DNA from: Trichostrongylus colubriformis | Lineage: Eukaryota > Nematoda > Chromadorea > Rhabditida > Trichostrongylidae | Direction: 5' to 3' | Assembly: GCA_963978905.1 (NCBI GenBank) | Contig: OZ022261.1 | Span: 1,427,992 to 1,491,991, forward strand | DNA: 64,000 nucleotides | In this document: positions 23,300-58,816 of the stretch, one piece after another | How the letters are laid out: the number at the start of each line of letters is the position of its first letter | Numbering within the stretch: the first letter of the stretch is position 1 | Translations under genes and position numbers: made by a program | Notes under the pieces: model-generated | What the model was told of the DNA's origin: nothing | The model's database searches: none | What the model saw: the letters and a program-made list of their open reading frames with translations, nothing else

Positions 23300-23404
23300 C
23301 TGACAAGCATACACTCTCGAAGACACATGACCAAACCAGTGCTGCTGCAAGGAGACTGCATCGTTGAACGACTTATTGCACAGCGTACATGGCAGGCATA
23401 GTTG
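23300..23404 (-). CDS. orphan C2H2 zinc-finger exon, probable alternative 3' exon of sma-9
   Basis: Acceptor CGCTTGTAG immediately after an in-frame stop, donor CAG|GTATTT, exactly 35 codons in phase 0. It encodes QLCLPCTLCNKSFNDAVSLQ then QHWFGHVSSRVYACQ. The finger is Cys-x2-Cys-x12-His-x3-His. Same strand and 3.4 kb beyond exon 25, it would supply the third finger of a C-terminal triplet like that reported for C. elegans SMA-9. Its partner exons were not found: exon 25's possible donor is phase 2, so a linking exon is missing, or exon 24 uses a phase-0 donor. A separate zinc-finger gene is the alternative. Confidence 0.6.
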
Positions 23405-26847: not shown

Positions 26848-26972
26848 TCACCTCGGCCATGAGGAGTCACTTTCATCGGATAGAGGCGAGCAGCGCTGAT
26901 CCGTGACGTCTTCGGTCAAACGATTTGCTAGCACCGAGGTCACGGATGATACTGATTCGTCTTCGCGAGCTT
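26848..26972 (-). CDS. sma-9: sma-9 exon 25, acidic C-terminus (putative terminal exon)
   Basis: Acceptor TTTTTTTCAG; 40 residues (964-1003) from [20 protein letters not shown] to [11 protein letters not shown] and a TGA. The stop codon overlaps a near-consensus donor (CCGAG|GTGAGA), so the exon could also be internal. AATAAA occurs 8 bases past the stop. Confidence 0.7.
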
Positions 26973-29900
26973 CTGAAAAAAAGGTTGCTTTCCAGCATCA
27001 ATCAGAAGGAAAAGCAACGGAACAACCTATGCTCAGAGCAGCATCGACACAGCGTTGATAATGGGCAACGATATGTAGTCGGAGGCTTTCCTTGTTTGGA
27101 TATACTTTGTCACAGTTCCGTTTAGGACACTTCAGATCTTTTCCATCGCGTATAGAAATGTGTTCAGAGTACAAATGCACCTACAATACTACTTCACCAT
27201 AAACCGAACACTTCGAAAACAACAAGTTGTAAGAACATCACAAAAAATTGTCACGGCAACTGGATTGCCGTTGGAAAAAAGGCTTAAAATTTTTCATCGA
27301 TTGGGAGTAGCTACAGTGCATTAGAGCCATTGCACGCAAATTCCACGCGATCCCACATAAAAATCACTTCTTGGCAGACGGGATTTTAGCGAGAATTCTG
27401 TCCCCGCTATTTTGTACTTCGCATAACCGAGTGTTTGCCAGCTTAACAAGTCAATTGCCCCAAAAAATAATCAGTAGCCCTCAAACACGTGAGGAAACTT
27501 ACCAGTAGAAGAGCTCTCACTTATCGTGGAACAAAAGACCATGATATGTACATGTATAACAAAATCTGCTACATGGTCCTGAGTAACAGCTTATATTCGT
27601 AGATTACACATTTCACTCTCGGAGCTACTTGCAGCGTGGAGACGAAGATTTCCTCACAACACCTCCTACTGCGTGTATTACCTTCAGTGAGTGGGCAGCT
27701 GCACAACGCCCTCTGCCTCGAAGTTCACAAGTTACGACTTCAGAAACTTATAGATGAACAATTTCAGTGCATCTTATGAACAAACTTCTTCCTTTCCACG
27801 TTAATGCTCAAAGCCCTGATAAAGGAATCGTCCACGGGAGTTTTTGTGTTATTCATGTGTTTATGTTGTATTTGCCTAATGTTGGCCTCATGCAAAATTT
27901 TACGCGAAAAAATGTGAATCTGGCTGAGATACAGCACCACAAAGTGCGGTCCAGGTGGGCGGGGCCTCCGTGTAAAAGCCTCGTCCCGTCGTCCGCCGTG
28001 GTCGGAGACGCATTGTAGGAACAGAAGGTTACGTAAACAGTCCCACTCTCCGTTCCCACCGGCGGCGGACGACGAGGCTTTTACACGGAGGCCCCGCCCA
28101 CCTGGACCGCACTTTGTGGTGCTGTATCTCAGCCACATTCATATTTTTCACGTGAAATTTTGCATGAGGCCAACATTAGGCAATTACAACATAAATATAT
28201 GGGTAACACAAAAACTCATTTTCCGTGGACGATTCCTCCTTTAATTCGACCAATCGGCACTCACCCGTGTATACACCGCAAGGGGTAAGTTGGTAGAATG
28301 TGGAGGAAATTGATTTGACAATACGAAATTTAGCGTCCCTCTGCATCACTAGACGGTGAGGGAGATGCAAATGAGAGAGGGGTTTAGTCAGCTGGCCGCG
28401 AATGTTGTCCTACCCAGCAGATAAGTGACAGCGGAACCTGCAGTGCTGCGAGATTGTGATAAGATCCCCAAGCTCACTTCCAATGACGCGTTTTGCCACT
28501 CATCACCTCTTCTGCAGTCAAAAGTTTGATTTCGGAAACACAGTTCTGACTTCACTAACCCCAGGCGGTGCCTTCAAAGGAAAAGAGAGAGTTCGACTTT
28601 GAGTGAAGAAGCACGCTATTGAAATCGCTCGCTTCTGTACCTCGAGTCGAACTCTCTTCCGTGACGGTTTGTAGCCGTTCCTACCGGATACTGGTGACAG
28701 AATCGTTAGCTTGGCGTCGGCGTCTTCTTTTCAAAAAGCAATTCCCACCACCAGATTCGAGTTATGCATTAAGTTTAAGTCCATATAGAGGAGCGAGATA
28801 AAGTACAAACACTCACTGCAAATGATGACTTTTTGCCAACATTCAAACCGTTTGTGCATGCCATCCTTCCAGAATGCAGGCTGGCGCAAAGCAAAGACAG
28901 AGCTCAATGCCATTTTGACGAGAACACAAGTCCAGAGGAATCCCCCGTCAAGGTGACGAGCTAGATTTGAAAAAAAATATCGCTCCTAAGGAGTGATGTG
29001 TTTCAGAGTGTCTGGCACTGCAATGCAGAAATTCGATACTGCTGACAATCTCCCCACTTGCCTCAAGTCATCCAGCTGCCGCGTGAGAAGATTGGTACCA
29101 GAAGTAATTCCTCATCTCAGCACTTTCAGTGCACCAGACTGGGTGAGATAACGAGCTGGAAGCCTACACTGGTGAGATGACGAGCTGGACAGTTTAGACC
29201 TCACTTTGTCTTCGAAACTGTAGCCTCGCGCTATGAATGATAACAGAGGAGGTTGATTGACGATACGGGTTGTCCTTACACATCTCCTTCAATTACCCTC
29301 TTCCTATATTTGAGGGGATGGGTAGATAAAACGTATAGAAAGACACTTATAAAAGTACGGAAAGTGCTGAATCCGCGATAAAGGCAAATGCTAAGACCGG
29401 GATAAACCAGGATCCATCTGCAAAAAAGGAAAGTAGGTATTACTGCTAATATTATTAGTGAGGCGCCATCAATTACAAAATCTAAGAATTATGACAATGA
29501 CTGACTCAACGATCGTCGACGTCAACCTAAAAGATGTGGTAACAAGTATGATATGGCTCAAGTTTGAGAGGCATCATATCATAAAGCAGACTTTCCGTTC
29601 GATGAGTGAATCAGCACCGCTACTTTCATTAATAAGCGCGATGACACTACAATTTATCGATGGGACAGCTTGAGTTGTTTGGCTCTCCTAACTTTTTTTT
29701 TCAACTAAAGCGTAGCATAAGCCACGTCAAAAGCGCCGCGGGAATCCCCTAGGCAAAAGAGTCTCGAAGATCACCGCTAAAAAGTCCTTTTTTCAGTGTC
29801 TTGTAGCGACGATATGTAGTTCCAAAATGTCTGGACGAGCAGCTCATAATGACCTTTTCTTCTAGATGCGGAATAAGGCAAAAACGATGAGATGTAAGTC

Positions 29901-32900
29901 GAATCAGTAATGGCAAATTGTGAAAGAAAGCTGAGCATTTGTTGGGCTCAATCTGTTTTTCATATCAATTCCTTTTCCTTTCAGTTACTATGGGAAGCTG
30001 CAACTCGTCTACATTCTGTCAGTTAAAACAGAGAAGTTGACTACTTCAGGATTCTTCGACAAATCAGCACACGTACATCTAGCCTGATAAAAAAAAAACC
30101 ATGTTCCAGGAAAGCATACCTGCAAATCAATGGATGAGTCTGCGTTCGCCCCGCATATCTGGCACTTTGTACACTGAAGCATGAGAGGTGAAGGAACATA
30201 ACCATTATTACACAGCAAGCGTACGATAGGTGACGAGCAACCACTGCGTTCCTAAAAGAATGAATGGACTCACATAATTACAAACAACCCAGTCTGAAAC
30301 AGCAGATAGTAAAAAGAAACAAGCGCAAAACTTGAGTTAGAAGTGAAGACCATGAAAAGCTGGGCTCATGAAATGAGCGAGTGACGATTTGCCTGATGTA
30401 AATTTCATCGATGACTCGCTCAATTTAATGTGCGGATGCTGCGCAATTCTCGTCAACCTTACCACGAGCCGCGTTCCTGTGTTCAATATCCGTTCAAAGC
30501 CAACTTTATATGCCATTCGTTCGTGCATGGAAAACCCCGTCTTGAGCTTTCTTCAGTTACTTCTGACGTAAGGGAGAGTGAGGCCAGAAGTATCAAGCTG
30601 TGAACCATTATGAACAAGCCCATATTCCAGACAAGAAGCTGGCGATTCCACTTATATCTCCAGACGCAGTATGAAATTGAATACGTTGAGCTACGCCGGA
30701 AAAGGAAAATCTTCTGGATTGTTAATTAAAACACAGACACATCACAACTGGAATACTCAACTACGAAATCTATACTTGAGCTAAGCTTCCTCACAGATAA
30801 ATTTAGTAGTCATTACAAGGATGCTGAGTTATGGGCAAAAGCTTCGGTGTCGGACGGGACTCGAACCCGGGTTCGAGTCCCGTCCGACACCGAAGCTTTT
30901 GCCCATAACTCAGCATATTTGTAGTATCTTTCGAATCGCGAGCTGCGGCGATAAACAGCAGTTATCAAAAATCAAAAATATCAAAATTAGTAGTCATTAT
31001 TTTATGATCGAATTCAAGGTATCACCTAAATGCGAAAATAAATGTGACCTAGACTTATACATATAACATAGCATGTAGCATTCTCCAAGCTCTCTCTTCC
31101 CGAAACCTCGGCACGATGTTCACATTATCCGTGTGTTGCCTTGCCGAACATATTTAGATGGAACAGTTTTATTAATGGCCTGACGTTTCGACCCCTTCGT
31201 CGTCTTCAGAGGCCTTGAAAGTGGCCGAAAGTTCGCTGATCCTTGATTTACCAGATCAAACAAACGCCGACAGCCCCTAGCATTTCGGGCTTATCCATAC
31301 AATCCACGAAGAAGTCGAATAAACGAAACAATTAATGAATTTACCTTGTGATCCATCGAGAGTGGTAAGACGTCGCTACTGACTCCTGTTAGTATAATGT
31401 GCGACTGCGAGTTACTATATAGCGGTGATGACAAAGTGACGGTGCTGTCAGTCGCGATAACATTCTAACCCCCAAAGTGGTACAAACGGCAGGGATTCAC
31501 TTCCGATTGAAGGACACTCATTTCTGCTATTCATTATTATTCCTTACGGATATCCAAAACACTTCATGCCTTCCTAGATGGAATCTCGGTCCATGTGACA
31601 GAATTTTGCACTTCATTTCAAAGTCATTCCCGCTGTGGTGTTCACGCCTGTGCCTTCCGAATGGATTTGTTATTGTTCCCCTCTTCGTATTGGCCAGATT
31701 TTCACCAATATGCGTTAACAAATATCCTGATTCACGCAAAATTGGCCCACCCCAGCTGCAGAGAGAGCTGTTATGAAAGACATGTTCAAGACTGCTATAG
31801 CAGTGTGCACGGGTAATGACGAAACACGATAATCACTTGCGTTGGCTTATCATATAGCTGCTCAAAACGGTTATGCTCAACCATCGTACCACGTAAGAAT
31901 ATTCCCTAATCATAGATGGCGAGGAACGCTCTTCCAACGCCACGTACCTTTGTGTCTGCCCTTTATCCCTGACACTCAGGAATACGTCGATTTGTTCGCG
32001 CTCAGTTGCAAAACGATGTCGTGTCAATATCTCGAACGACAATAGTCAATGTCAGCCAGTACGCAACAGGCGCTGCGACTATGAATGTGCTTCAGAGAAT
32101 TGCGCAATTTGCCCCTTTGTAAGACAGGGGACTGGGCAAATCTGGTGTGGTTCAAGAGATTGAATGTAGAGCGTGCAATTGCAAGTACATTGGGGAGACC
32201 GGCCGCGTTTTGATAACGCATATTCGTGAACATCTGGCCAGTACAGAAGGGAACAATAACAACTCCATTCGGAAGCCACAGGCGTGTACACCACAGCGGG
32301 AATGACTTTGAATTGAAGTGCAAATTCTGTCACATGAGACCGAGATTCCATTTAGGAAGGCATTAGAAGCGTTTTGGATATCCGCAAGGAAACCAATAAT
32401 GAACAATAGAATTGAGTGTCCTTCAATCACAAGTGTTCCTGCCGTTTGCACCGCTTTGGGGGTACAGCACCGTTCCTTTATAGTAACTCCCAGTCGCACA
32501 TTCTACTAACAAGAGTCAGTAGCGACGTCCTAACACTCTAGGTAGATTACGGGTAAGTTCCTTTTCTTTCTTTCGTCTATTCCGTCTTCATGGATTGAAT
32601 GTGTAAGTTCGAAATGCTAGGGGCTCCTGGCGCTTGATCGGTTAAGTCAAGGGTCAGCGAACTTCGAGCCACTTGTTAGGCCTCTGAAGACGACGAAACG
32701 GTCGAAACGTCAGGCCATCAATAAAGCTGATCCATCTAAATGTGATTGGCAAAGCAACACACGGACAATATGAATCATGCCGAGGTGGTCAAGGTCAAAT
32801 TATTTTCGCATTTAGGTGATACTTTGAATTCGATCATAAAATAATGACTACTAATTTATCCGTGAGGAAGCGTAGCTCAAGTGTAGATTTCATAGTTGAG

Positions 32901-35900
32901 TATTCCAGTTGTGATGCGTGTCTTTGTTTTAATTGACAATTCAGAAGATTTTCCTTTTCCAGCGTTTGTTTTTGCTCTATAATATCCGGTTAGCGCGCCA
33001 TAGGCGATTGCACTCACTATGTAGTATCATTATTCATTCCAAAACACCATAATTACGTTCAATGAGTCGTTTTGCAAATGGGGGAGCAGATACGAGTCAG
33101 CGTCTTCAGACTCATACACAGATGGGCAACTCATTGCAAGTGGTGGGTTGACCTCCTTTTTTTTGTTAGGAGTGGGGCTCAGGACTAACAGACTTCAGAA
33201 ATCTTGATCATCGTTACTGAGTCACATGTGCCACAAGTAATACAGCATGAGAGAAAGACGCACTCCTTCACTGTCTCCACGAACTTCTGACACGACCTCC
33301 TGAACCGAGCGCATATTGTTCGAACCCATCCGAGTAGTTAAACAGCGCTCCTATAATAATTCTAGAATTTCCGAAACCCAATCATTGAGTTGCAGCGTAA
33401 TGCATTCATAAGACGTTTCTTTGAATCAGCCTTAGTCCAGCCCTGTCGAAAATTTCATCTTGAATGTCTCGAATGTTTACTATAAATTTGACAGAATACC
33501 GTTAATCAATCTTACGGTATCAACACGAGGAGGTATCCACAAATTTGCCGAAATTTGCTTGACATTTCCTCCCTCATCTTGATAGTGTACATCAGGACTT
33601 ATCCTTGCTAGAGAGTCGCACCTCAAAAATCAACTGATGTGATTTTAAACATAGGTGCAAGACCATGACTACAATAAGGTACAGTGCGAATGAATGAAAG
33701 TGACTGCACCGCACATGATCACGTGTCCTAGTTATGCTCACCTTTTTCCGTAGTGGTTGTTAGCTTCAGAAAATGCAACAGAAGGGGTATCAGGCGAAAA
33801 AAGATTATTGAGACAAGTGGTTCTTGTCTCAGTTTCTCGTATAGCGCCTAATGTGACAGCTGCCTAGAAAGGAGAATCAAAACAGATATCAAATGTGCTT
33901 TAAGAGAAAGAATTACCTTCTTCTGAACAACAACAGCAGGCAGCGTCGCAGACTCTTCTTGGCTCTTCACATTCTCCATACTCGTAATCTCGACCTCAGT
34001 TCTCGATCCGGTCGAACAGGAAGCCGAAACCGCTTGCATTGAAGTGCGCTGATTCTCTGCCCGGATCGCTTCCACTATTACTGAAAGCACTTATAGTGGC
34101 TATGGTACTTTATCCGCAACCCTCCACATTTTCATATTTACAGAAAACATTGAATAACCAAAAGTTTGCCTTCAGTTGACTTCTTCAGTTCATTATATCA
34201 CACAACAACGTTTCGCGTCCGCTATTCGGATAGATCGTCTCATAAGATAGAAATTTCCGCTGACGTCGCGTGGCAAGCAATTACAATCAAGCATGGGTTT
34301 CAAAGACTGAGGATAATGGAAAGTGAGAGAATCCGTCCGAGTGTTCATACAACATCGGAACAGTTTGAGAGAGATTTCCCACGACTGCGATAAGGACAAA
34401 CACTGGGAACTTGCGCGGCACGAATGAGTGGAATTGGCTAGCCGTGTTTGTGGCGGAAAATGAGGATCTCAACATGGACAACAGGAAGAGTTTCGCAAAC
34501 TCAGAAAGCGCGAGATACATAAGAGGTTCCTCACGAAGTCCAAGCTGGAGCTATAGTACCGAGTACTCCGATGAGTCAATCGTGAATAAGTTGATAAGTT
34601 CGTGCTATTTTTCGATCCCCGTATTTCACAGCATCCTCCTCACCATTCGACACAGTTTATATACTGTTACAGCTTCGCTACCAAGTGTGAAGTACGAGAC
34701 GACAAGTTACTGACATACCACAGAGTAGCCCTTATGTAAGGGCTAACGCATCACTCAATAACAACAATGAGCACAAACACAAACACTTATTATCACAAGC
34801 CAAGTCCAAGACAATCGCCACATGGGTAGTGAGCGGTCATCCATAATATGTGTATTCGATGGAACTTCTTTTGCCCTTCAAAACAATCCTATGGCTTAAC
34901 TGAATCCTTCAATCATTCAATATTTATGCGGTGCAGGAAAAGAGTAATTAGGAGACAAAAGCTCGCACTTCCGGTATCCCCTCTTCTTCGTCTACCATCG
35001 AGGCCAAAAAATATGTACACATACGTTCTAGATAGAGCTTTTTTATGCCCACATAACTGTTCTATTTGCTAATTTGAATCACCTGTTTGTTATTTTTGAG
35101 GCTTGGAATGAGGCACGGAGCAAAAACTTGGCACAAATTCGTAAACGCATAAATGTTGGATGATTTAAGGATTCAAGAACGATACCATAGTAGTACCTTC
35201 CCAAAGCAGAGCGAGCTCTATTGAGTGCATATACAGGAGGTGCTAGAAAAGAGTCATTTTTCACCTCTAATTTCAACTCTATACTAGTGGAACTTCAGCA
35301 GGCGGGGTACTTCCATTCCAAATTCAAGGACAGACCTCGATCATCACTAAATTCCATAACAGCTTTCTGCACGAGTAGGATCGGGAGGTTCTTACAAGTG
35401 CGTTCTTGAGCACTTCGTTTCCTTCAGGTTCCCATCGCTTCGTTTCCAAGCACCTGAACGTGCAATTGCCCCTCTCTAAAGGCGAGTTGAGGCATGATAA
35501 TGCACTTTGGATCATAGCAGCGTTGTCCAAGCAGCGAGAGTTATGTGACTTTCATGAACCGAAGGATCAGTCCTCACGAAGCTCCAACGAGAGATCCACG
35601 ACAGAAGCTGGGTCTGCTGTTTGAGGCGGGCCCAGATGCCTAGGTGCTCTAAAGTCCGAATGTGTCGACTGAAGGCTCCATATTTCGGGACGGTGAATGG
35701 TGAGCCCCCGCTTGCTCCACCTTCTGGAGGATCATTCCAGGAATATTTTGCCTCAATACTTTTATCTCTTTCATTATACTTTGCTTTGTATACTTGGCAG
35801 ATGTAAGCCGCGAGCAAAGCTACTCTTTTTTGGCACCTCCTGCATAAACTTCACCGAAAGATGAACAGAATGTTGTGAAATACTGACAGTAAAAAGCAAC

Positions 35901-50900: not shown

Positions 50901-53900
50901 AACCTGAAGAGTTGTGCCTGCTCGAACACAAACAATCCACGCCCCTCCCCCCAACCAAATCACACCTGGCCTCAAACGAACGAATTTCCAACGTGGCGCA
51001 CACGTGGAGAAGGGAACTTGCGACAAGAGGAGATAATTCAACGAAACAGCCATTTCGAAGCACAAAGCGACTTCCACGTTGAAAATTCGTCCGTCTAAGG
51101 CCAGGTGTGATCTGGATGGGTGGGCGTGGCTTGGTTGTGTCAAGCACGCACAACACCGTGAGGGTGCACCGTGTGGTCGCAACAATGGTGCAGTCTGAGC
51201 AATTATCTAAGACCTACTCCCCCAAGAACGTGAGCCACTGATCTGATCATTACGTGATATGCTTTTTAATGTTGTGCCAATGCTATTGACAAGAAGCAAT
51301 CTAAACAGCGAGAAAATAAGTTAGAAGCAAACGTGTGGAAGGTACACTAGGCTATATAACAAAGGCACTCCCCTTCCGTCGTGGTCGCGCAGATAAGTTA
51401 GAAGCAATCCAAAGAGGGGGATACTGCAGAATGTAGAGTCCTATGCATCGACGACCTAGCTTGTTAAACGTTGCACATCAACTTGTCTTTACATCGTGTC
51501 ACTAACTTGACATTAAGTCAGTCATGGTAAAGAAACGTCCTGAAACAGGACATTCGCCTCGAATAGCTGGCTTTTTCCCTGCCACTGCCACAGCCGTTCA
51601 GGAAAAGTGAATATCAGTTCTTTGTTTCACCTACGACGACACTACGGAGGCAAAAATGGTTCCGTGAATCTGAGCGGACAAGACTGCTACGAACGGGTGT
51701 ATGTCGTTTGGCGCGGCCCTTGCAGCTAATTTGCCAATGGGGCGCATGGACCGTCTGGACTCTCCCAGATTTACCTAAGCCTTTTTAGGGGAGGAGCTTT
51801 GGCAGTGCCCCATTGGCAAATTAGCTCCAAGGGGCCGCGCCAAACGACCGTCTCCCCTACGAACTAGACCCCATCTTGTGTAATCGCAGAATGTGTAATG
51901 CTGCCGAGGTTCTTCCTTCGACACAGGAAGCGATCACTAACCACGGAGGAATGAATGCCACTTTGACCGTGACCTAGTGCCTTGAGAACAGAGGAGATAA
52001 TCTTTCATGAGGTGTTCGAAACGAAAAGCTTTCACGTATTTATGCTAAATCAATATTTTCGGCTGCGTATTTCTGGACACATCAATCCCTATTTCTTGCA
52101 CATCTTTGCATAACTGGAAAACTTCCTCGAATCCTATGCTTCTCATCAAAGTAGCTGATTGCTGTATACCAATCGTTTAGTTTTTGTAGTTTTACTCGCT
52201 ATGCTCACTTGCAAATTGATGGGACCTTGGCTGTACATGCATCTCCGATTTCATCAAATATGCTCGTACGACCAAAAGTGAAGAAAAAGGCATGATGAAG
52301 GAATTTTGGAAACTTTTTCCTTCAGAAAACAAATGAAGAAGATAACCTCTAGATACCTGAATGGATGCACTCTTTAAACAAGTATTAGCTGAAGAAAAAA
52401 CCCGAGTAGATAGCGAAAAGAGCAACGAACCACCCACCACTTGTTATTATCCTCCGTTTAAAGGCGCACATCGCGATAACCAGAGTAGTCGACTTATTTT
52501 CCCGAAGTAAAAGATACTTGTTTAACTATTCAAGTTGCACCCTTCCTGGGCCGCAAAGATGTGCCATCACGGCGCAAAAATCGAATTTGGAATCTACACC
52601 AACCGCGCCCACCTGAGCTCCTTGTTGGCCAGCTGTCCTAAAAGGCGTAGTCTCGGTGGGTTCGAAGTAGATAAAGCAGTGGTGGTGCACTGCAGTGGTG
52701 CAACCTTGACAGTCACGCGAAGGTCTACTGCCTTGAGAACTTAAGTTGACTAGACTGATTATGCAAGGTGTGCCCTTACCTACAGCCCATGTCGCTCCCG
52801 TAAAAAAGGCTAGAGTAACAGTGAGCGAGATTTGTACGAAATAGGCGAATCCAGCGCCGCAAAATCATGATGGCCACAGTTTTCCCCGAAAATTACGAAC
52901 AGAGGCAGGAGTAAGCACAAATGTATAGGTTGAAAGGAAGGAAACACTGCGATATAGCGATACCTGCATTGAGAAAGAGTTAGCACATAATATTTGCACT
53001 TAAATAGTATAGAGAATACCACGGTGTTGAAGATTAGTAGAAGTTCAGAATATAAAAAGAGACTGAAAACGATGGACGAAACATGCATGGATAACTTGCT
53101 CAATCTACACTACGTCATGATGTCCTGTACATGTGGCAAAAATTTTACTAGTAATAGGCAACAGAAATAAAATTTTCAAAAGGAAAGAAGAAGCTAGGAA
53201 ACATCCACAACGAGAATAACGGAGATTATGCTACATATTTGTTCAAAATCTGTACTTGGGAGGCACGTGAACCAAGAAAATTCGGCATTCGTAAGCAAAG
53301 ACTTATAAGGAGCAAGAAAGGGTGTGGCTGAGCGGTATCGGTAAAAGAAGGAGTATTGTTAACTACTCACAAGTTTCAAGTGTGTGATGGCCATTTTTTC
53401 CCGTGAGAGGGAAAAGATACATCGAACGAAAGTGCGTCTGCGGTACTAACAATTACATCCTACAACCCCGGTTTGAGCCCGGTGTCCAGAAAAATTTTCG
53501 AAAACACGACCACCGTCTAGAAGGGGTCTCCGGTACGGTCCCCTCAAAGAACCATGTAAATGCGACCCCCTTCAAAGCCAACTTTAGACAGCAAAAACGC
53601 TGTTTCACTAGCTTCACCGAACGAAAATGGTTCCTGACATGGATCTTACCTCATCCGTGCGGTGTCCGCCGATAACCGGATCCTGCTTTTTCATAATTTT
53701 CCACAACCTCGTTTCCTCAGCCATTGAAATGAAGTTTGCAGAAGCAATGACAGGTGCTCTACATAAGTTTGCGGAAGTTAACTTCATGAGAACTTTCAGT
53801 AAAAGAAAATCTCACAATTCTTCACTCGTTTCGGCTACACCGGAGTCCTGGCTTCGTAGTTTCGAGGACCCAACATCATCTGCCTGAACATCTAACACTT

Positions 53901-56900
53901 GATTAACAATCATACCGCCCACACTCGTGACTTGTAAACCACTTCATCTACTGCCGGTTTTGTATCTTGCTCATGCGCCACAAAGGAGTGAAGAGCCCCT
54001 TGCTCCCTGTCCACGTCATTCACCTGGTCAGTTTGCCGTCTCATCTGAAAAGTTGAACACAAGAGTTTCAAACCACCGAGCATAATAATATGACACAGCA
54101 TAATCACTACCTTATTTCGATACTCCCAAAATGACGAATGTGTCATCTTGTACTGCCCATGGTCGCGATTTGCAACACTATATCGCCAAAATGGCTTCAC
54201 TCCCGTTCGTGGTCTCGTCGAGCACATACCCATATACAGTAAGTTGAGCTTGGATTCCGCCTCGTTAATGCTCACCTTGATATTACAGACATGGTTTCAA
54301 GTAAACTAGTTTACAGTATTTCACTTGAAGGCACACCTCGCGATAGTTACCTAGTCCACCCTCTTCCTCGGCAGATAGATCCTTGTGTTACTGTGCATGT
54401 TGCACTCCTACTACTGAGCGACGACTGAATCCGCCCCAACCGGAACTATCCATACCAAAGAAAATAGCCACAACGTGGCGTGGTGCCTATGCAGCAAAGG
54501 TATGGATTTCCCCTATGCTAGGTAACCCGCAGTCATTTAGTTGAGGAAAACCCGTTGCGGAGTTCAAATATTGCTCTATGTAAGCAAGCTCGCAGTTGTT
54601 ATAAAGTCGAAAAAATGCACCACCGATCTAAGTGATAAAGCATTAGTAAACGAGTTCGTCGCCTAAGAACTTCAAGCGGCAACAGTGAAGTACTTATACC
54701 ACTACCCCGATTCCAACTACTGCGGAAGGTGGCTAATAAGCGCCTGTGAAAGATAGAAATTCTACGTGTGCAGACAACGTCAGCGAGATGAAGCAAGCAA
54801 TAGTGCTGAGCTTTGCGTGACACCATCGAACAAAGACTCTTTCGAGAGCTCCCATGAGACCGTGACCAAGATGGCCCCAATTCGGTGTTCTCAAAAGTTT
54901 TTGTTCCGTTTTTCACTAACACCAGCATCTCCTTATACTCAGCTGGAAGCGGCAACGCTCGCAGTTTATCGCGAGGTGTGCGTCCAACCCTGAATGTGAA
55001 GCTTCTACAAACAGATCTACGTACCTGCTGCCAATTGCTGTACATTGACAAGTTTCCTTTCTGTTCAACAAACATTGGCTGAGCTCGGTGCATGCACACG
55101 AATGTCTCACTAGTGATATTTCTTCCACGGGACCTAATTAGCAAGAGCTACAAGGCCGGCAAAAACAAAGTTCAACTGGGAAGTGCAGCACAGGTACAGC
55201 AACACTCCATGAACAGATGCATCACTGAGTGGAAACAGACCTTCTAACCGTAGCCAAATCAGCTGAGGACTGCACCTTACACGAATGCGTCAAAACTAGC
55301 GTGTAAGGTTTTTCGGTATTGCCGTCAAGAACACGCCCTTCGATGCTGAACGGATTCTCCTACAAAAAAAAACAGAGAGTTAGTTATCAAAGTGAAGAAG
55401 ACCCAAACTACCTCCTTTCTATGACACTGATCGGCCTCTGCGGGTAGAGGCACGTAATTCGTGCAAGTCGGAGAAGCAAATGTCGATGAGCTCGCAGCTA
55501 TCTGAATGGCACAGAGCGGTACAGAAGCGTACACTTGCTGCACCATAGAAGAAACGGCAACGGGTGCAGCCACAAAATGACTTTGTTGTTGATCCAAATT
55601 AATTGACACGGTCGTAATCCTGGAATAGAAACTAATGGGTTGAGGAATAAGTTCCTGCGTTTTTTTTGTTCTCTTTTCACATTGTTCCCTTCATCTTTCG
55701 ACAGAGCTTATATATGTTTTCCTTTTTTTTGCTTTACAAAACTCTACTACCTGTTTTTCGATTGCCTTATATTTATGAGGTTTGGAAAAGAAGTAGGCTC
55801 AAGGCAAATACTAGCACTCTCGACAATTCATCTTCCTCGTCTGCCATCGAGATCAGAAAATGTATGTGCGTATGTTTTCGATAGAGTTCCGATAGAGCTT
55901 ATTCAGCTCTACAGCATGGTACTGCCTTTTGTTCAGATCGCTCAACTTTTTGCTGTATTTAAGACTCACAAATGCAGTACACAGTGAAAGTAAGCACTTT
56001 CGTTATTTTGTCTTCCTCGCCTACCATTGAGATTGGAGAGAATGTGCATACATGCATTCGATAGAGCTCTTTCTGCTCTACAGTATAGTGCTACCTCTAC
56101 AATCTTTTAAATTCCTACAAGATGATAACATTCGTCTTTCGTATCCTTTCATATTTTAGCATATAGGAATAAGTTTCCAACTTTTTTTTTTCAATCCAAA
56201 ATTGTGTAATGAAAATGAAATGTTTCCAACTTTTTTTTTCAATCCAAAATTGTGTAATGAAAATGAAATGTTTTGGCACAATGTTCTGTATTATTTGATA
56301 TGAAATTTTTCGCTGTACAAGATTGTGTTTACGGTTTTTCCTTCCAATTAATTTTTGCCACTTTTTAGATCATCTAAAAGAAGTGCCAAGTCGACAAAAT
56401 CGAGCATGTTTGACATCATGCTCGCTGCATGCTGTTTTGAAACGCTGCGCTTATTTCTATCGGAGAGATCAGCAAAACCTTCCATACTCCCTTTGTTTTC
56501 ATGTCCTGTAGGATCCTAGTTGAAATTATTGAAGACAGCACGAAGCCGTCGCCTCTACTGCACGTCTCCAGGCCTTATTTTGAGGTAAACTAATCTATCA
56601 CCCTTATTTTGAGGTATTAATCTTTCACCCTTAATTTGAGGTGAACTAATCTTTCACTGGACCAGATATCAGTCTCCCTCTTGCTATCACCTGAAAATGA
56701 AGAGACTACAACAACAATACTCCAGCAAGTGGAGGTCAAAAGTGACGGGACAGTGTGAGGTGACCGTAACCTTTTGCAAAATAGGAAAAGAGGCATTCTC
56801 AAACAGATGGAAGGAACATTTTCTGTGTTCTCGAGTTGAAATTCGGTGTTCATACTGGAATACACGATTACGCTGGGTTCATACATTTTTCAGTTGGAGG

Positions 56901-58816
56901 GTTTTTCCGAATCACTCTGCAAACTGAGTTTTTTGACAATTTGTAGGTGGCTGCATATATTCGGATTCAGCCGCCGTTCCCTTGGTCTCCAACCGTACGA
57001 GATTAGCTACCACAATTAGGTGAAGACACAGCATAGCAGCAGGTGCTACGACAATTGGTCGTCGAAATAGACATTGATAGCATTTATCGGTTCCTGTTGA
57101 ATAAAGGAAGCTACTTAGTGTACAATGCTTTCCAGATGTTGAAGAGGGTCATTCACTGCTTTGTGGTTGACTAAGGATTGGGGCATCAGCTTTTCATACT
57201 TGCTGCTCAATTTATTTGAAAACTTTATGCAGGTATATGTGCCTAATGAAGGATTGCAAACGCGCTTTGCAGCCTACCTTCGAGAAGAGCTATCGCGACA
57301 ACCGTCGATTTCGACTGAAGCGTCTTTCATTTCAGCGACTGTGGCTTCTTGCTCGTCCACGACAACCAAATCGTTTGCTGCCTCGTTTGTTGATTCCGGA
57401 AAATACGATAAATACTCCGTATCAAGAAGAGTAAGCGTGTTTCGTTACACTTGCCGGTCTAGAAGACTTCTTGGGGCTCTGTTGCTCAAAAGATACAGCG
57501 GCAAGCAATCTTCTTTTCAGCGGATGCCTGCTGTATGCATCCACTTCCGAACTTTTTGTTGCGCTTTGCAACGTGAACGTGGAGTCGACTTTGAACTTAA
57601 AATTTTTTTGCGAAATCTCATTAACTTGTATGAATGTGTGGCTTTCTAACCTTCTCAGCTCCCGAATGAATTGCATCGACTTTCCTACTACATCGAAACT
57701 CGTGCACCTGCAGTCCAGCTTCATTAGGAAAGCTGGAAGACTTAGTTATCAAAGTGTTAGAATTCCGCACCACTGTTATCTATTACTTACGTCAAGAGGC
57801 AGAAGGAGCATGTCGGTAGAAACTCCTGTTTAATGTTTCTGTTTAAGGGTAAACCGGATGTTAAACTGCCACCGAATGACGACTTTGCATTCTGGAAAAA
57901 ACCCGTGTATGAAAACGGAAAGAAACTAAAGCGAAAGACGCATTGAATAAAGAGATCTCAACACATACTAAGATAGGTTCACACTGAGGCTGAGAGCGAC
58001 TAGCGGATTGGAACATCCGATGGTTTCGTAGTCCAGGAGAAGTTCGGATACATCCTGCAATTACGCACTGTATGAAAAGTGAAAAGTGATAAAGGATGCT
58101 AGCGAACGGCACAGGTGGTGAGGTAAAATATTTCTCTTATTAACGCTGTCACGGAAGGAAAAGTAGCGCTTCGCATTGTGGGGGCAGCGCGAACTAATGC
58201 GATGGTGAAGAAATCTGTTTCATTGCATAGCTACGAAGCCTTACAGAAAAACCATTACGCTGCTTAACATGGGGCTGTGGTGGATGACAAGATAACATTT
58301 ATGAGCTCTAAGCAGTACCAGCAATACACCTCGATAAATTTCACCGACACCACAACAACAGTCAGTCCTTTCATCAAAGAAATATAGTGAGCAAAGACGT
58401 TTTTGACGCCTTCACTTCTGACTCTCCACTATAAATAGTGCACAGACAAGCAAATTCATTCACCGTTAAAATGAAGAAGCCAACAAGGGAGATATCTCCC
58501 ATCCACTTGCTGGATTGGGAACATCTGTGTTTAGGTATATTTGACAGTACCCTTCAGCACTGTTCACACATCACCACTGAATGAGATTTCAATTGATTCC
58601 GCAAGTCGTACTGATGGCGCCCCGAGTGCGACGCGCGAAGCGATTTTCCGTCATAAGTGCACGCACCCGACTGGATGCTATACGATTCTTGCGAATATGG
58701 GAACTCGGTTTGTAGTTCAACCAAACAGAAGGAAGATGACCATAAGGTAAAGACTGGTACCTGATGCGCCATCATGCTCGAAGGAACAAGCATCACCGAA
58801 AGCTTGCCATGCATAC
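26848..58816 (-). CDS. sma-9: sma-9/schnurri (HIVEP-type) zinc-finger transcription factor, 25-exon model, possibly 5' incomplete
   Basis: Minus-strand gene. Exons in transcript order: 58761-58816, 57983-58054, 57791-57825, 57651-57732, 57449-57595, 57278-57414, 55412-55619, 55241-55359, 55025-55133, 54111-54275, 53916-54044, 50664-50761, 47987-48102, 47820-47937, 47711-47763, 47443-47607, 46340-46485, 44839-44949, 41283-41357, 38397-38551, 38195-38337, 33917-34080, 30120-30251, 27027-27180, 26848-26972. All junctions keep phase and give about 1,003 residues. Family signatures: the finger pair with [10 protein letters not shown] and [10 protein letters not shown], an acidic then Ser-rich stretch (the ZAS arrangement), and [19 protein letters not shown] followed by DTTDCE. 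In C. elegans SMA-9 is a nuclear cofactor of BMP (DBL-1/Sma) signalling controlling body size and mesoderm; that role is inferred by homology. C. elegans SMA-9 is about twice as long with a Gln-rich N-terminus, which is not seen here, so upstream exons may lie outside the window. Introns run from 34 bp to 4.1 kb and the long ones hold mobile DNA. Confidence 0.9.
27027..27180 (-). CDS. sma-9: sma-9 exon 24, second half of finger 6 and C2H2 finger 7
   Basis: Acceptor AGTATTGTAG. It encodes [20 protein letters not shown] then [20 protein letters not shown] (912-951). Finger 7 is C-x4-C-x12-H-x3-H (Cys929, Cys934, His947, His951). The donor AG|GTTGTT is inferred from phase and leaves a 54-bp intron. 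If unspliced, the frame runs on 9 residues to a stop at 26,998, a possible short isoform. Confidence 0.88.
27822..28242. mobile_element. 421-bp fold-back MITE (GGAATCGTCCACGG family) in sma-9 intron 23
   Basis: Nearly the whole element is one inverted repeat: AAGGAATCGTCCACGG at the left and CCGTGGACGATTCCTC at the right. GGTGGGCGGGGCCTCCGTGT is mirrored by ACACGGAGGCCCCGCCCACC. Open frames inside are mirror artefacts. Relatives at 18,978, 37,378 and 39,438; a bare end at 25,083. Confidence 0.85.
28340..28520 (+). repeat. second copy of the 14.4-kb dispersed repeat
   Basis: Shares the CATCACTAG..GGTGAG and ACGCGTTTTGC blocks with 14,420-14,640. Lies in sma-9 intron 23. Confidence 0.55.
30120..30251 (-). 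CDS. sma-9: sma-9 exon 23, Cys-rich, first half of zinc finger 6
   Basis: Acceptor CTTTTAG, donor CAG|GTATGC, exactly 44 codons. It contains [20 protein letters not shown] (881-900). Cys897 and Cys900 pair with His913 and His918 in the next exon, a C2H2 finger split by a 2.9-kb intron. Cys881 and Cys894 are extra cysteines of unknown role. Confidence 0.88.
30816..30986 (+). mobile_element. SINE-like insertion with palindromic, tRNA-like head and A-rich tail
   Basis: A 171-bp segment present in the minus-strand Penelope copy but absent from the matching place in the plus-strand copy (near 32,845). It is bounded by direct repeats of TTAGTAGTCATTA (30,803-30,815 and 30,987-30,999). It ends in an A-rich run of TCAAAAA-type units. 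Its head holds GGTTCGAGTCCCG, a match to a tRNA T-arm / Pol III B box. These are marks of target-primed SINE insertion. Confidence 0.75.
30821..30916. repeat. perfect 96-bp palindrome
   Basis: Positions 30,821-30,868 are the exact reverse complement of 30,869-30,916 with no spacer, centred on CCCGGG. Each arm contains a B-box-like GGTTCGAGTCC. It forms most of the head of the SINE-like insertion. Confidence 0.97.
33917..34080 (-). CDS. sma-9: sma-9 exon 22, Ser/Glu-rich linker
   Basis: Acceptor AAGTGCTTTCAG, donor AAG|GTAATT, 164 bp. It encodes [20 protein letters not shown] through [11 protein letters not shown] (814-867). Its first two bases complete the split Val codon left by exon 21 and it ends in phase 0, as exon 23 needs. 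Confidence 0.85.
34880..35060 (+). repeat. copy of the TTTTCGATAGAGCTTTTTCT family
   Basis: Diverged, with TCTTCTTCGTCTACCATCGA and CTAGATAGAGCTTTTTTATG. Located in sma-9 intron 21. Confidence 0.5.
35234..35842. mobile_element. DNA element with CAGGAGGTGC terminal repeats in sma-9 intron 21
   Basis: CAGGAGGTGCTAGAAAAGAG at the left and the inverse CTCTTTTTTGGCACCTCCTG at the right. A single related end, CAGGGGGTGCCGAAAACAAG, sits at 43,957. A 101-codon minus-strand frame (35,512-35,817) has no recognisable motif. Confidence 0.65.
36411..36878 (+). mobile_element. TIR element, ACCGGAAGGG family, copy 1
   Basis: Left end TTAAAGGAACCGGAAGGGGG, right end inverse of CTCCCTTACGGTGTCTTTAA. The interior shares GGTTAGAAGCGATAATCGG and TTGGCACCATGCCAAGGCGT with the inverted copy at 41,887-42,352. 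In sma-9 intron 21. Confidence 0.75.
37378..37797. mobile_element. fold-back MITE of the GGAATCGTCCACGG family in sma-9 intron 21
   Basis: Same layout and length as 27,822-28,242, ends AAGGAATCGTCCACGA and CCGTGGACGATCCCTT, more diverged in the centre. Confidence 0.8.
38195..38337 (-). CDS. sma-9: sma-9 exon 21, end of finger 5 and conserved tail
   Basis: Acceptor TTGCACTTAG, donor TTCG|GTAGGG, 143 bp. It begins [20 protein letters not shown] and contains [16 protein letters not shown] (766-812). The HVMKLE and DTTDCE strings match the conserved segment after this finger in schnurri/HIVEP proteins. The 4.1-kb intron downstream contains a TIR element, repeats and a fold-back MITE. Confidence 0.95.
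38397..38551 (-). CDS. sma-9: sma-9 exon 20, linker and most of zinc finger 5
   Basis: Acceptor TTTTTTCGCAG, donor TTGAG|GTGATT, 155 bp. After a 30-residue linker it encodes [20 protein letters not shown] (744-763). Cys747, Cys750 and His763 are here; His769 is in the next exon across a 59-bp intron. FRKHGxLAKHLRSK is a hallmark of schnurri/HIVEP proteins. Confidence 0.95.
39438..39803. mobile_element. diverged fold-back MITE of the same family in sma-9 intron 19
   Basis: Ends GAAGGAATCGTGCGAGGAAA and GGGCACGATTCTTTC; contains the GGGGCGGGGCTTC core. Confidence 0.6.
41283..41357 (-). CDS. sma-9: sma-9 exon 19, C2H2 zinc finger 4
   Basis: Acceptor GGTGTTTCAG, consensus donor CGT|GTAAGT, exactly 25 codons. 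The exon is one finger, [20 protein letters not shown] then SHGTR (689-713): Cys689, Cys692, His705 and His710. With finger 3 it forms the second finger pair. Confidence 0.92.
41575..41660 (+). mobile_element. Penelope-like 3' end fragment
   Basis: A short stretch with CGGAACGTCAGACCATCAAT resembles the 3' tail of the Penelope copies at 31.2 and 32.7 kb (GAAACGTCAGGCCATCAATA). Nothing else of an element is visible. Confidence 0.5.
41887..42352 (-). mobile_element. TIR element, ACCGGAAGGG family, copy 2 (inverted)
   Basis: Reads AAAGACACCGGAAGGGGGTA at one end and CCCTTCCGGTTCCTTTAA at the other; full-length relative of copy 1 in the opposite direction. In sma-9 intron 18. Confidence 0.75.
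43957..44010 (+). mobile_element. solo end of the CAGGAGGTGC element
   Basis: CAGGGGGTGCCGAAAACAAG then TTGCTCACGGCTCACATC matches the inverse of 35,842-35,805. Confidence 0.55.
44839..44949 (-). CDS. sma-9: sma-9 exon 18, C2H2 zinc finger 3
   Basis: Acceptor AATAGTTTTAG, donor CAG|GTATGG, exactly 37 codons. It encodes [20 protein letters not shown] and then HQYTHD (652-677), a canonical C2H2 finger with Cys656, Cys659, His672 and His676. The linker HTRNKMFQ leads directly into the Cys of the next exon. Confidence 0.92.
45998..46190. mobile_element. MITE of the CATACTCTGCGG family in a sma-9 intron
   Basis: Left end CATACTCTGCGGCTTGCCGG pairs imperfectly with right end CCGCCGGCTGCACCGCAAAA followed by TATGA. 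It is more diverged and longer than its relatives. Confidence 0.5.
46340..46485 (-). CDS. sma-9: sma-9 exon 17, Ser/Thr/Gln-rich, two in-frame donors
   Basis: Acceptor TTTCTTTGCAG. The full exon encodes 48 residues (604-651) beginning [20 protein letters not shown] and rich in Ser, Gln and His, ending at GAG|GTGGCT. A stronger consensus donor, TCT|GTAAGT, lies inside it at 46,442-46,447 and is also in phase 0, giving a 12-residue version. Both join exon 18 in frame. Confidence 0.75.
46690..46860 (-). repeat. inverted copy of the TTTTCGATAGAGCTTTTTCT family
   Basis: On the minus strand it shares CCTCATAAATATT / AAACGATG and TGGCAAAAATTCGCACTCTC with 14,870-14,930. Located in sma-9 intron 16. 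Confidence 0.6.
47443..47607 (-). CDS. sma-9: sma-9 exon 16, Ser/Pro-rich part of the ZAS domain
   Basis: Acceptor CTTTTTCAG, consensus donor CTTT|GTAAGA, 165 bp. It encodes [20 protein letters not shown] through [13 protein letters not shown] (549-602). The Ser/Pro-rich segment after the acidic tract completes the finger-acidic-serine order of ZAS proteins. The TPPSRW and CSSAPPS motifs look conserved, from memory of the family. Confidence 0.85.
47711..47763 (-). CDS. sma-9: sma-9 exon 15, acidic continuation
   Basis: A 53-bp exon, acceptor GAATTGTAG, donor GCTG|GTAATA, encoding [17 protein letters not shown] (531-547). It continues the acidic tract and is flanked by introns of 56 and 103 bp. 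Confidence 0.82.
47820..47937 (-). CDS. sma-9: sma-9 exon 14, acidic part of the ZAS domain
   Basis: Follows a 49-bp intron; acceptor TGTTAAG, donor GATC|GTAAGA. It encodes [20 protein letters not shown] and continues acidic through [12 protein letters not shown] (492-529). An acidic stretch directly after the finger pair is the second element of the ZAS architecture. Confidence 0.88.
47987..48102 (-). CDS. sma-9: sma-9 exon 13, ZAS zinc finger 2
   Basis: Acceptor TAATTTTTCAG, donor CAAG|GTAGAT, 116 bp. It encodes [20 protein letters not shown] then [15 protein letters not shown] (453-490). Zinc ligands Cys462, Cys465, His478 and His484, with the H-x5-H spacing typical of schnurri. Trp475 replaces the usual Leu of KGNLTKH. 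The 2.56-kb intron between the two ZAS fingers carries a Penelope-like fragment. Confidence 0.95.
48179..49040 (+). mobile_element. Penelope-like element 3' fragment in the sma-9 ZAS intron
   Basis: Plus strand, broken frames: [20 protein letters not shown] at about 48,215, then from 48,395 [20 protein letters not shown] and [18 protein letters not shown]. These are the two conserved blocks of the GIY-YIG endonuclease. The 3' tail at 48,940-48,975 has TTTCGGCTTTACAGACTCTG, the terminal motif of these elements. It is decayed and interrupted by a poly-G tract at about 48,557. Confidence 0.85.
50664..50761 (-). CDS. sma-9: sma-9 exon 12, ZAS zinc finger 1 with RG-rich lead
   Basis: Acceptor CTTGTTCAG, donor ATCAA|GTGCGT, 98 bp. 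It encodes [20 protein letters not shown] and then [13 protein letters not shown] (420-452). Cys434, Cys437 and His450 are here and the last zinc ligand His454 is in the next exon. [10 protein letters not shown] is diagnostic of the schnurri/HIVEP finger pair. The preceding RGRGRGR is AT-hook-like. Confidence 0.93.
50862..51218. mobile_element. palindromic MITE in sma-9 intron 11
   Basis: Left arm AAATCACACCTGGCCTCAAA...TTCCAACGTGG is mirrored by CCACGTTGAAAATTCG...AAGGCCAGGTGTGAT. The outer arms pair through GTTGAGGCTGCATGGTGCAA and its diverged inverse. Confidence 0.7.
51703..51848. mobile_element. 146-bp fold-back element
   Basis: GTCGTTTGGCGCGGCCCTTG ... AATTTGCCAATGGGGC is repeated inverted as GCCCCATTGGCAAATT ... 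GGCCGCGCCAAACGAC, with about 41-bp arms and a 60-bp spacer. Confidence 0.8.
53320..53490 (+). repeat. possible tRNA-derived repeat
   Basis: GGGTGTGGCTGAGCGGTATC looks like the 5' end of a tRNA-Leu/Ser with its A box. GGTTTGAGCCCGG about 130 bp later resembles a B box. The spacing is too large for a tRNA gene. In sma-9 intron 11. Confidence 0.3.
53916..54044 (-). CDS. sma-9: sma-9 exon 11, linker before the ZAS fingers
   Basis: Acceptor TTTTCAG, donor GCG|GTATGA, exactly 43 codons (377-419) beginning [20 protein letters not shown], hydrophilic and charged. Phase 0 on both sides. The following intron of 3.15 kb holds two palindromic MITEs. Confidence 0.85.
54111..54275 (-). CDS. sma-9: sma-9 exon 10, unclassified globular block
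   Basis: Acceptor AATATCAAG, donor AAG|GTAGTG, exactly 55 codons (322-376). It contains [20 protein letters not shown] and a C-terminal [13 protein letters not shown], rich in Trp/Tyr/Phe and so likely folded. I do not recognise a named domain. It directly precedes the linker to the ZAS finger pair. Confidence 0.85.
55025..55133 (-). CDS. sma-9: sma-9 exon 9
   Basis: Acceptor CTAATTAG, consensus donor CAG|GTACGT, 109 bp. It encodes 36 residues (286-321) beginning [20 protein letters not shown]. It lies inside a longer open frame (54,599-55,144), the rest of which is intron. With the next exon it forms a conserved-looking non-finger block of unknown function. Confidence 0.8.
55241..55359 (-). 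CDS. sma-9: sma-9 exon 8
   Basis: Acceptor TTTTTTTTGTAG after a 52-bp intron. It encodes 39 residues (246-284) beginning [20 protein letters not shown]. The donor AG|GTCTGT is weak but is the only one that keeps phase with the next exon; an earlier GTAAGG would break the frame. No domain is recognised. Confidence 0.7.
55412..55619 (-). CDS. sma-9: sma-9 exon 7, Ser/Val/Gln-containing linker
   Basis: Acceptor TTTCTATTCCAG and donor GAG|GTAGTTTG, 208 bp. It encodes 69 residues (177-245) starting [20 protein letters not shown], low in complexity with Ala/Ser/Val and a short QQQ run. This is the only hint of the Gln-rich region known from C. elegans SMA-9. Confidence 0.8.
55640..56110 (+). repeat. 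copy of the TTTTCGATAGAGCTTTTTCT family
   Basis: The longest relative of 14,748-15,190, with CTTCCTCGTCTGCCATCGAG, TTTTCGATAGAG and CTCTACAGCATGGTACTGCC. Located in sma-9 intron 6. Confidence 0.65.
56172..56271 (+). repeat. about 48-bp tandem duplication
   Basis: The unit GTTTCCAACTTTTTTTTT ... AATGAAAATGAAAT occurs twice head to tail with almost no difference. In sma-9 intron 6. Confidence 0.9.
56574..56662 (+). repeat. three-unit tandem repeat, about 30 bp each
   Basis: Units start CTTATTTTGAGGTAAACTAA, CTTATTTTGAGGTATTAATC and CTTAATTTGAGGTGAACTAA. Confidence 0.85.
57278..57414 (-). CDS. sma-9: sma-9 exon 6, acidic linker
   Basis: Encodes up to 45 residues (131-175), Glu/Asp-rich, containing [20 protein letters not shown], ending at a good donor CGAAG|GTAGGC in phase 2 that matches the exon starting at 55619. 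The acceptor is either at 57415 (34-bp intron) or at 57382 (67-bp intron). Both keep the frame and differ by 11 residues. Confidence 0.65.
57449..57595 (-). CDS. sma-9: sma-9 exon 5, linker region
   Basis: Acceptor AATTTTAAG, 49 codons (82-130) beginning [20 protein letters not shown] and containing [10 protein letters not shown], a basic patch that could act in nuclear import. The donor is AGT|GTAACG in phase 0. The following intron would be only 34 bp, or 67 bp if a later in-frame acceptor is used, so the right edge of the next exon is uncertain. Confidence 0.7.
57651..57732 (-). CDS. sma-9: sma-9 exon 4, second half of the C2HC finger
   Basis: Acceptor AGTCTTCCAG and donor AAG|GTTAGA, 82 bp. 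Joined to the previous exon it gives C-x2-C-x12-H-x3-C (48-68), a C2HC finger. The rest of the exon is basic, ending HSGAEK. The downstream intron is 55 bp. Confidence 0.75.
57791..57825 (-). CDS. sma-9: sma-9 exon 3, first half of a C2HC zinc finger
   Basis: A 35-bp micro-exon with acceptor TTAAACAG and consensus donor GAC|GTAAGT. It encodes [11 protein letters not shown] plus two bases. The Cys-x2-Cys pair (residues 48 and 51) is completed by His64 and Cys68 in the next exon, which independently supports the junction. A second acceptor 13 bp upstream (CCTTAAACAG) exists but would change the phase needed upstream. Confidence 0.75.
57983..58054 (-). CDS. sma-9: sma-9 exon 2
   Basis: Acceptor AATTGCAG and donor AGT|GTGAAC, phase 0 on both sides. 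It encodes 24 residues beginning [16 protein letters not shown] (19-42). An alternative donor 8 bases downstream (GTATGT) would join the next exon out of phase. The assignment rests on phase and composition; no domain is recognised. Confidence 0.6.
58761..58816 (-). CDS. sma-9: sma-9 exon 1 (first ATG; possible SL trans-splice acceptor)
   Basis: Acceptor TTTTCCTGACTCAG is followed by GT and then ATG, so the exon either starts an SL trans-spliced mRNA (a leader plus two bases before ATG) or is internal with a split codon. It encodes 18 residues beginning MHGKLSVML and ends at CAG|GTACCAG in phase 0, which matches the next exon. No upstream exon in the right phase was found, but the window ends 5 kb further on. 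Confidence 0.6.

Follow-up and report, generated by a model that had tools for sequence, protein, structure and literature searches.

The schnurri locus and its exons

The DNA analysed here, a window of 64,000 nucleotides from Trichostrongylus colubriformis (contig OZ022261.1, positions 1,427,992 to 1,491,991), is crossed on its minus strand by a sma-9/schnurri gene that extends from an ATG at 76,546 to a stop codon ending at 17,807 (window coordinates), a span of 58,740 bp with its start 12.5 kb beyond the window and its end 9 kb past position 26,848. The coding sequence of 4,713 bases is distributed over 39 exons and encodes a protein of 1,570 amino acids without internal stops; exons 1-7 (76,546-64,633) fall outside the window and exons 8-39 (n = 32) inside it. 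The initial annotation had confined the gene to 26,848-58,816 and counted 25 exons of 35-208 bp, but homology places 29 exons in that interval, out of 32 within the window and 39 altogether. Exon 8 starts at 58,054 rather than at 58,816. Directly upstream of it, all three guide proteins spanning that part (P0001-P0003) indicate a single intron of 6,578 bp, beyond which lie exons 1-7; at the opposite side, exons 37-39 (26,270-17,807) add one whole finger, one split finger and the stop codon. The exons are indeed all small, the smallest measuring 58 bp (58-208 bp overall, 68-208 bp within 26,848-58,816), and introns range from 47 to 6,578 bp. The claim that every junction keeps the frame holds for all 38 joins of the rebuilt model, even if one intron departs from the GT-AG borders present in the other 37.

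This exon structure is a homology-guided prediction. Four nematode guide proteins, hookworm and Trichostrongylus included, served to place the exons by tblastn in the window and its flanks (40 kb on the upstream side, 10 kb on the downstream side). At each junction the choice depended on the score of the splice sites, on the frame and on how the proteins aligned over the joined exons. Ab initio chaining of exons, based on C. elegans tables for codons and splice sites, returned 57 and 110 exons at two settings, many of them false, and was replaced by the protein-guided joins.

All the exons described below lie on the minus strand and, unless other evidence is named, were placed by tblastn together with splice sites and frame. 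Exon 8 (57969..58054) matches P0003, P0001 and P0002, while exons 9 (57791..57891) and 10 (57651..57732) carry the first and second half of a central CCHC finger. They are followed by exon 11 (57455..57595), which has a GC donor, and exon 12 (57278..57396), which is preceded by CG instead of AG; the end of the former and the start of the latter were placed by P0003. Next come exons 13 (55412..55619), 14 (55241..55359) and 15 (55025..55133; 97% identity with hookworm), with one conserved stretch in exon 15 and another in exon 16 (54111..54275), and then exons 17 (53943..54044), 18 (53816..53883) and 19 (53650..53758), the last exon in common with P0003. Zinc finger (ZF) 1 begins in exon 20 (50664..50761) and ends in exon 21 (47987..48102), which also holds ZF2; both exons contain family strings and were located by string search and tblastn. 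An acidic stretch occupies exons 22 (47820..47937) and 23 (47684..47763), after which lie exon 24 (47443..47607) and exon 25 (46340..46485).

The remaining fingers are spread over longer distances, with ZF3 in exon 26 (44839..44949), ZF4 in exon 27 (41283..41357) and the two parts of ZF5 in exons 28 (38397..38551) and 29 (38195..38337). After exon 30 (33917..34080; E = 3e-5 with P0001) and exons 31 (33742..33863), 32 (33516..33621) and 33 (33264..33350), the first part of ZF6 is found in exon 34 (30120..30251) and its second part, together with ZF7, in exon 35 (27027..27180). Exon 36 (26852..26972) is the last within 26,848-58,816; beyond it are exon 37 (26213..26270), exon 38 (23300..23404) with ZF8 and the first Cys of ZF9, and exon 39 (17807..17884; E = 8e-4 with P0002) with ZF9, whose last His is replaced by Tyr, and the stop codon. 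The strength of the matches varies along the gene: with P0003 as query, exon 1 alone reaches E = 3e-25 and exons 13-15 jointly E = 9e-73, values that rule out a chance match, whereas exons 25 (E = 0.009 with P0012), 32 (E = 0.004), 33 (E = 0.009) and 37 (E = 0.045, these three with P0001) match weakly and are supported by order, splice sites and frame. The weakest case is exon 31, which has the same kind of support and no tblastn match.

The exceptional intron 11 (57455-57396, minus) has, as modelled, a GC donor and CG where the acceptor AG is expected. A canonical but weaker GT-AG pair is available 4 and 19 bases further in; its use would leave the frame intact, with a net loss of five residues. 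However, P0003, a public T. colubriformis protein, joins exons 11 and 12 at the same residues as our model; there is therefore either an assembly error or variant at this point, or splicing differs.

As to the rest of the window, eight other open frames contained no Pfam family at E 0.01, there was no Rfam match at gathering scores, and tRNA and tmRNA were not found. A short intronic stretch (32165-32233, plus strand), which resembles a GIY-YIG remnant of a Penelope-type retroelement, lies in a frame (32126-32305) without Pfam match.

Family assignment and copy number

When a rough joined query was first compared with known proteins, those of nematodes were already topmost (best 120 of 269 matches). 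With the joined protein the matches (best 120 of 354, many of them unnamed or hypothetical) ran from hookworms through other nematodes and arthropods to vertebrate HIVEP, and the named families were mostly HIVEP, zinc finger protein 40 and schnurri. Leading the matches listed were Ancylostoma ceylanicum, with 68% identity over 99% of the length, and Necator americanus, with 65% over 100%. The schnurri/sma-9 identity proposed earlier is thus upheld, no different zinc-finger family having emerged as best match, and the three family strings on which it was based are present on the minus strand in exon 20 (near 50,700), exon 21 (near 48,060) and exons 28-29 (FRKHG near 38,425). Some of the matched public models are fused or misnamed (PI4-kinase, DM domain, ARID, fumarylacetoacetase); for example, the Heterorhabditis model P0121 is a schnurri fused to a phosphatidylinositol 4-kinase, and its schnurri part alone matches this locus.

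C2H2 fingers are common, and the strings might belong to a different C2H2 zinc-finger gene that acquired them by chance or convergence; in the search of solved structures, three ZNF568 chains outrank HIVEP1 by summed score. Yet two of these chains, those displayed completely, reach their score by adding up nine and ten repeats, none of them above 30 bits, whereas HIVEP1/MBP-1 (1bbo) is the top-scoring chain matching as one stretch, with 90 bits over 56 residues. The protein matches, moreover, span the whole length rather than the fingers alone and are strong outside them at exons 13-17, so that we give hardly any credence to such a chance resemblance.

The features of the Schnurri/HIVEP family are distributed along the protein accordingly. 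In schnurri proteins the acidic domain (ARD) sits beside the finger pair, and here the finger pair of exons 20-21 is followed by the acidic stretch DSENEDGL...DDDD...SSSDDEADE in exons 22-23; an ARD is named in a figure legend of PMC2904332. The triplet of invertebrate schnurri proteins, for which Smad contact is known from the fly, is present as ZF3-5 in exons 26-29, while SMA-9-type features are found in the third pair ZF6-7 (exons 34-35) and in a Gln-rich N-terminus encoded by exons 1-5 outside the window (Gln constitutes 19.5% of residues 1-210). The central CCHC finger of exons 9-10, which we take to be of HIVEP type, is the sole finger pattern before residue 800, and the N-terminal C2H2 pair (fly ZF1,2) is absent. 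Since the published description of SMA-9 (PMC2904332) also contains no such pair, its presence is not defining for the nematode branch.

No second schnurri copy was found when the 331-Mb assembly was searched in six frames with ZF1-2. The search produced 42 matches, the gene's own two exons scoring 84 and 68 bits and the other 40 no higher than 32 bits; the next-best match shows 38% identity (32 bits) and the most alike 50% over 28 residues, and these 40 look like unrelated C2H2 fingers. In the same genome, Smad MH2 domains gave 14 matches at 7 separate places, four with internal stops when read without introns. We conclude, at a probability of about 0.96, that this is the sma-9/schnurri gene of a strongylid parasite, 58.7 kb long with 39 exons coding for 1,570 residues, single in the assembly and equipped with the CCHC finger and ZF1-9. 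It is an ordinary schnurri/sma-9, a further member of an already known family; among the matches listed from the literature on schnurri in parasitic nematodes, there was no paper on this gene.

The public model P0003 and the junction before finger 1

P0003 (GCK32_008526) is identical to our protein at 790 of its residues 1-794, with three differences within the first 793 residues and the fourth where the model leaves the gene. Together with the position of the protein among strongylid orthologues (see below), this bears out the earlier suggestion of a probable parasitic nematode. P0003 departs before finger 1 and contains none of the nine C2H2 fingers; its tail of 235 residues (795-1029) finds no credible counterpart within the 114 kb surrounding the gene, and two genes have probably been fused in this model. 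Among the named rows of the matches listed, within the length limits of the search, there is no further protein of T. colubriformis. Unlike P0003, which breaks off ahead of the C2H2 fingers and continues with unrelated sequence, the gene model given here is complete.

The point of departure raises the question of whether the locus might comprise two transcription units, a Gln-rich half and a finger half divided by internal SL2 trans-splicing. Such an arrangement has a precedent in C. elegans, where sma-9 transcripts are described as split by alternative trans-splicing, with short transcripts of this kind (PMC2904332), and P0003 breaks at exactly the point where an intron of 2,888 bp directly precedes finger 1. 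Such a break can also be an artefact of a draft assembly, the tail of P0003 having no credible match nearby, and the 2,888-bp intron contains no AATAAA. We consider a division into two units unlikely and retain the single 39-exon gene as the preferred model.

Zinc fingers and the degenerate ZF9

The fingers start with the CCHC at residue 380 and continue with the predicted DNA-binding pair ZF1-2 (808, 836), the triplet ZF3-5 (1039, 1072, 1130), the pair ZF6-7 (1385, 1417) and the C-terminal pair ZF8-9 (1516, 1544). Half of the ten (CCHC, ZF1, ZF5, ZF6, ZF9) are completed only by exon joining, as the initial annotation had noticed for several fingers. C2H2 fingers contact bases through helix positions -1, 2, 3 and 6, which read KSMK for ZF1 in 30 of the 34 aligned rows and TGNK for ZF2 in 31 of 34, the exceptions consisting of gaps, Trichinella and one tail that is misaligned; the same residues occur in the HIVEP rows of frog and fish. 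At a core position of ZF2 (exon 21), 28 of the 32 rows with a residue have Leu, while Trp is found in this worm, Ancylostoma and Necator, and Phe in Strongylus.

The finger order is common to many nematode relatives, with several public models skipping single fingers. In the finger alignment, ZF6-9 were not seen in Strongyloides, Parastrongyloides or the Tribolium and Scaptodrosophila rows, ZF8-9 were not seen in Toxocara and C. briggsae, and ZF3-9 were not seen in the vertebrate rows; ZF9 itself is found from an annelid and arthropods to nematodes. Because of this spread among relatives, the alignment suggests that the ancestral nematode schnurri carried the CCHC and nine C2H2 fingers, and that the seven of C. 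elegans would be a reduced set.

ZF9 of this worm (17884-17807, minus) has the sequence CQVCDGGFTSSDAPPHHFLTY, with Tyr for His as fourth ligand plus further changes in the core. The fourth ligand is His in all 19 aligned relatives with a letter there, in a count restricted to those 20 relatives, out of 33, whose row contains CDA; of these, 18 have CCHH, Diploscapter has -CHH and Trichinella CCH-, its sequence ending there. This count needs to be qualified, since our ZF9 has CDG and decayed fingers of other species could therefore in principle have been missed by the CDA filter; no ZF9-like stretch is seen in the finger alignment for the 13 relatives dropped, and Parelaphostrongylus (P0173), outside the count, has an intact ZF9. 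A nested or second copy of ZF9 was sought between 77,000 and -9,999 on the minus strand, without a better match. Judging from these residues, ZF9 has probably lost zinc binding in this worm.

Phylogeny and rate of change

In a tree of 32 rows based on residues 795-1190, the protein pairs with that of Angiostrongylus (support 99/98) within a strongylid group of four (100/99), inside the nematodes. Its end branch of 0.25 compares with 0.018 for Ancylostoma, 0.050 for Necator and 0.082 for Angiostrongylus. Along residues 1-794, hookworm and Strongylus proteins are 90-94% identical mutually and 63-64% identical to this protein. Relative rates were computed for residues 1-794, 795-1190 and 1191-1570, and are given in this order as changes in this worm to changes in the comparison species. 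Against Ancylostoma they amount to 79:21, 33:9 and 47:16 with Heterorhabditis as outgroup (chi-square 33.6, 13.7 and 15.3), to 75:23, 19:8 and 25:19 with Diploscapter, and to 13:17, 17:7 and 21:12 with Toxocara; against Angiostrongylus, whose model is without nearly all of the first half of the protein, the excess is weaker, the last two parts giving 22:11 and 38:38 with outgroup Heterorhabditis. The ratios vary with outgroup and comparison species, and some comparisons are consequently without excess. The excess, for which this is the only gene compared, may be a property of the lineage and not of the gene.

Could this excess mean that the gene is a decaying or duplicated copy? The 79 to 21 excess over Ancylostoma in residues 1-794, the GC...CG borders of intron 11 and the Tyr for His in ZF9 would all speak for a pseudogene. 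Nevertheless, the assembly offers no other copy, the frame remains open for 1,570 codons, P0003 differs at only 3 of the first 793 residues and the base-contact positions of ZF1-2 are unchanged, all of which makes decay very improbable. A functional gene being the preferred reading, one could speculate that the only schnurri of Trichostrongylus is in a phase of fast change, in which it has lost the fourth ligand and much of the core of ZF9 and accumulated about 3-4 times the private changes of hookworm (Heterorhabditis outgroup), pointing to altered Smad partnering; we regard this scenario as doubtful.

Possible role in BMP signalling

By analogy with its fly and C. elegans orthologues, the protein would act in the nucleus, where ZF1-2 would bind Rel-type sites and ZF3-5 (fly ZF6-8) would contact the Smad complex, steering the target genes of BMP (DBL-1) up or down; the gene product would thus be a Smad/BMP-pathway cofactor. 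In the fly, Rel-like DNA binding is described for the pairs ZF1,2 and ZF4,5, and contact with the Mad-Medea-silencer complex for the triplet ZF6-8, which binds it (PMC10853822). C. elegans SMA-9 is reported to work with and partly against SMA-3, its direct targets including both activated and repressed genes (PMC11785376), and in Haemonchus the development of larvae was delayed when HcSMA2, a BMP-type Smad, was silenced (PMC7841850). Given the degenerate last finger and the divergence of the protein from its hookworm counterparts, some functions may differ in T. colubriformis. The lost zinc ligand in finger 9 provides a concrete test case for BMP control of parasite growth.

Comparison with known schnurri proteins

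Hookworm proteins are alike over the whole length, including the Gln-rich start and the CCHC finger. Ancylostoma ceylanicum Y032_0151g2798 shares ZF1-8, and Necator americanus also has ZF8-9, though its public model skips ZF4. They differ in that residues 1-794 are 64% identical to this protein, against 94% between Ancylostoma and Necator, and in that the last ZF9 ligand of Necator is intact.

SMA-9 of C. elegans, which is absent among the matches listed and was compared by its published description, shares the Gln-rich N-terminus, the finger pair, the triplet and the following pair (PMC2904332). In contrast to the 1,570 residues and 39 exons found here, it is described with 2,170 amino acids, 25 exons and seven fingers (PMC2904332), to which this worm adds the CCHC finger and two C2H2 fingers. 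The CCHC finger and ZF8-9 are likewise not seen in the C. briggsae protein P0007, whose model may lack part of its start.

Drosophila Schnurri has the finger pair (fly ZF4,5) and the triplet (fly ZF6-8) in common with this worm, which lacks the fly N-terminal pair ZF1,2 (PMC10853822); the Scaptodrosophila row has a CCHC-like finger and no counterpart of ZF6-9. Vertebrate HIVEP1-3 are described in the same source (PMC10853822) as lacking the triplet and retaining the N-terminal pair, but they have the ZF1-2 pair in common with T. colubriformis (1bbo; rows P0162 and P0163, from fish and frog).
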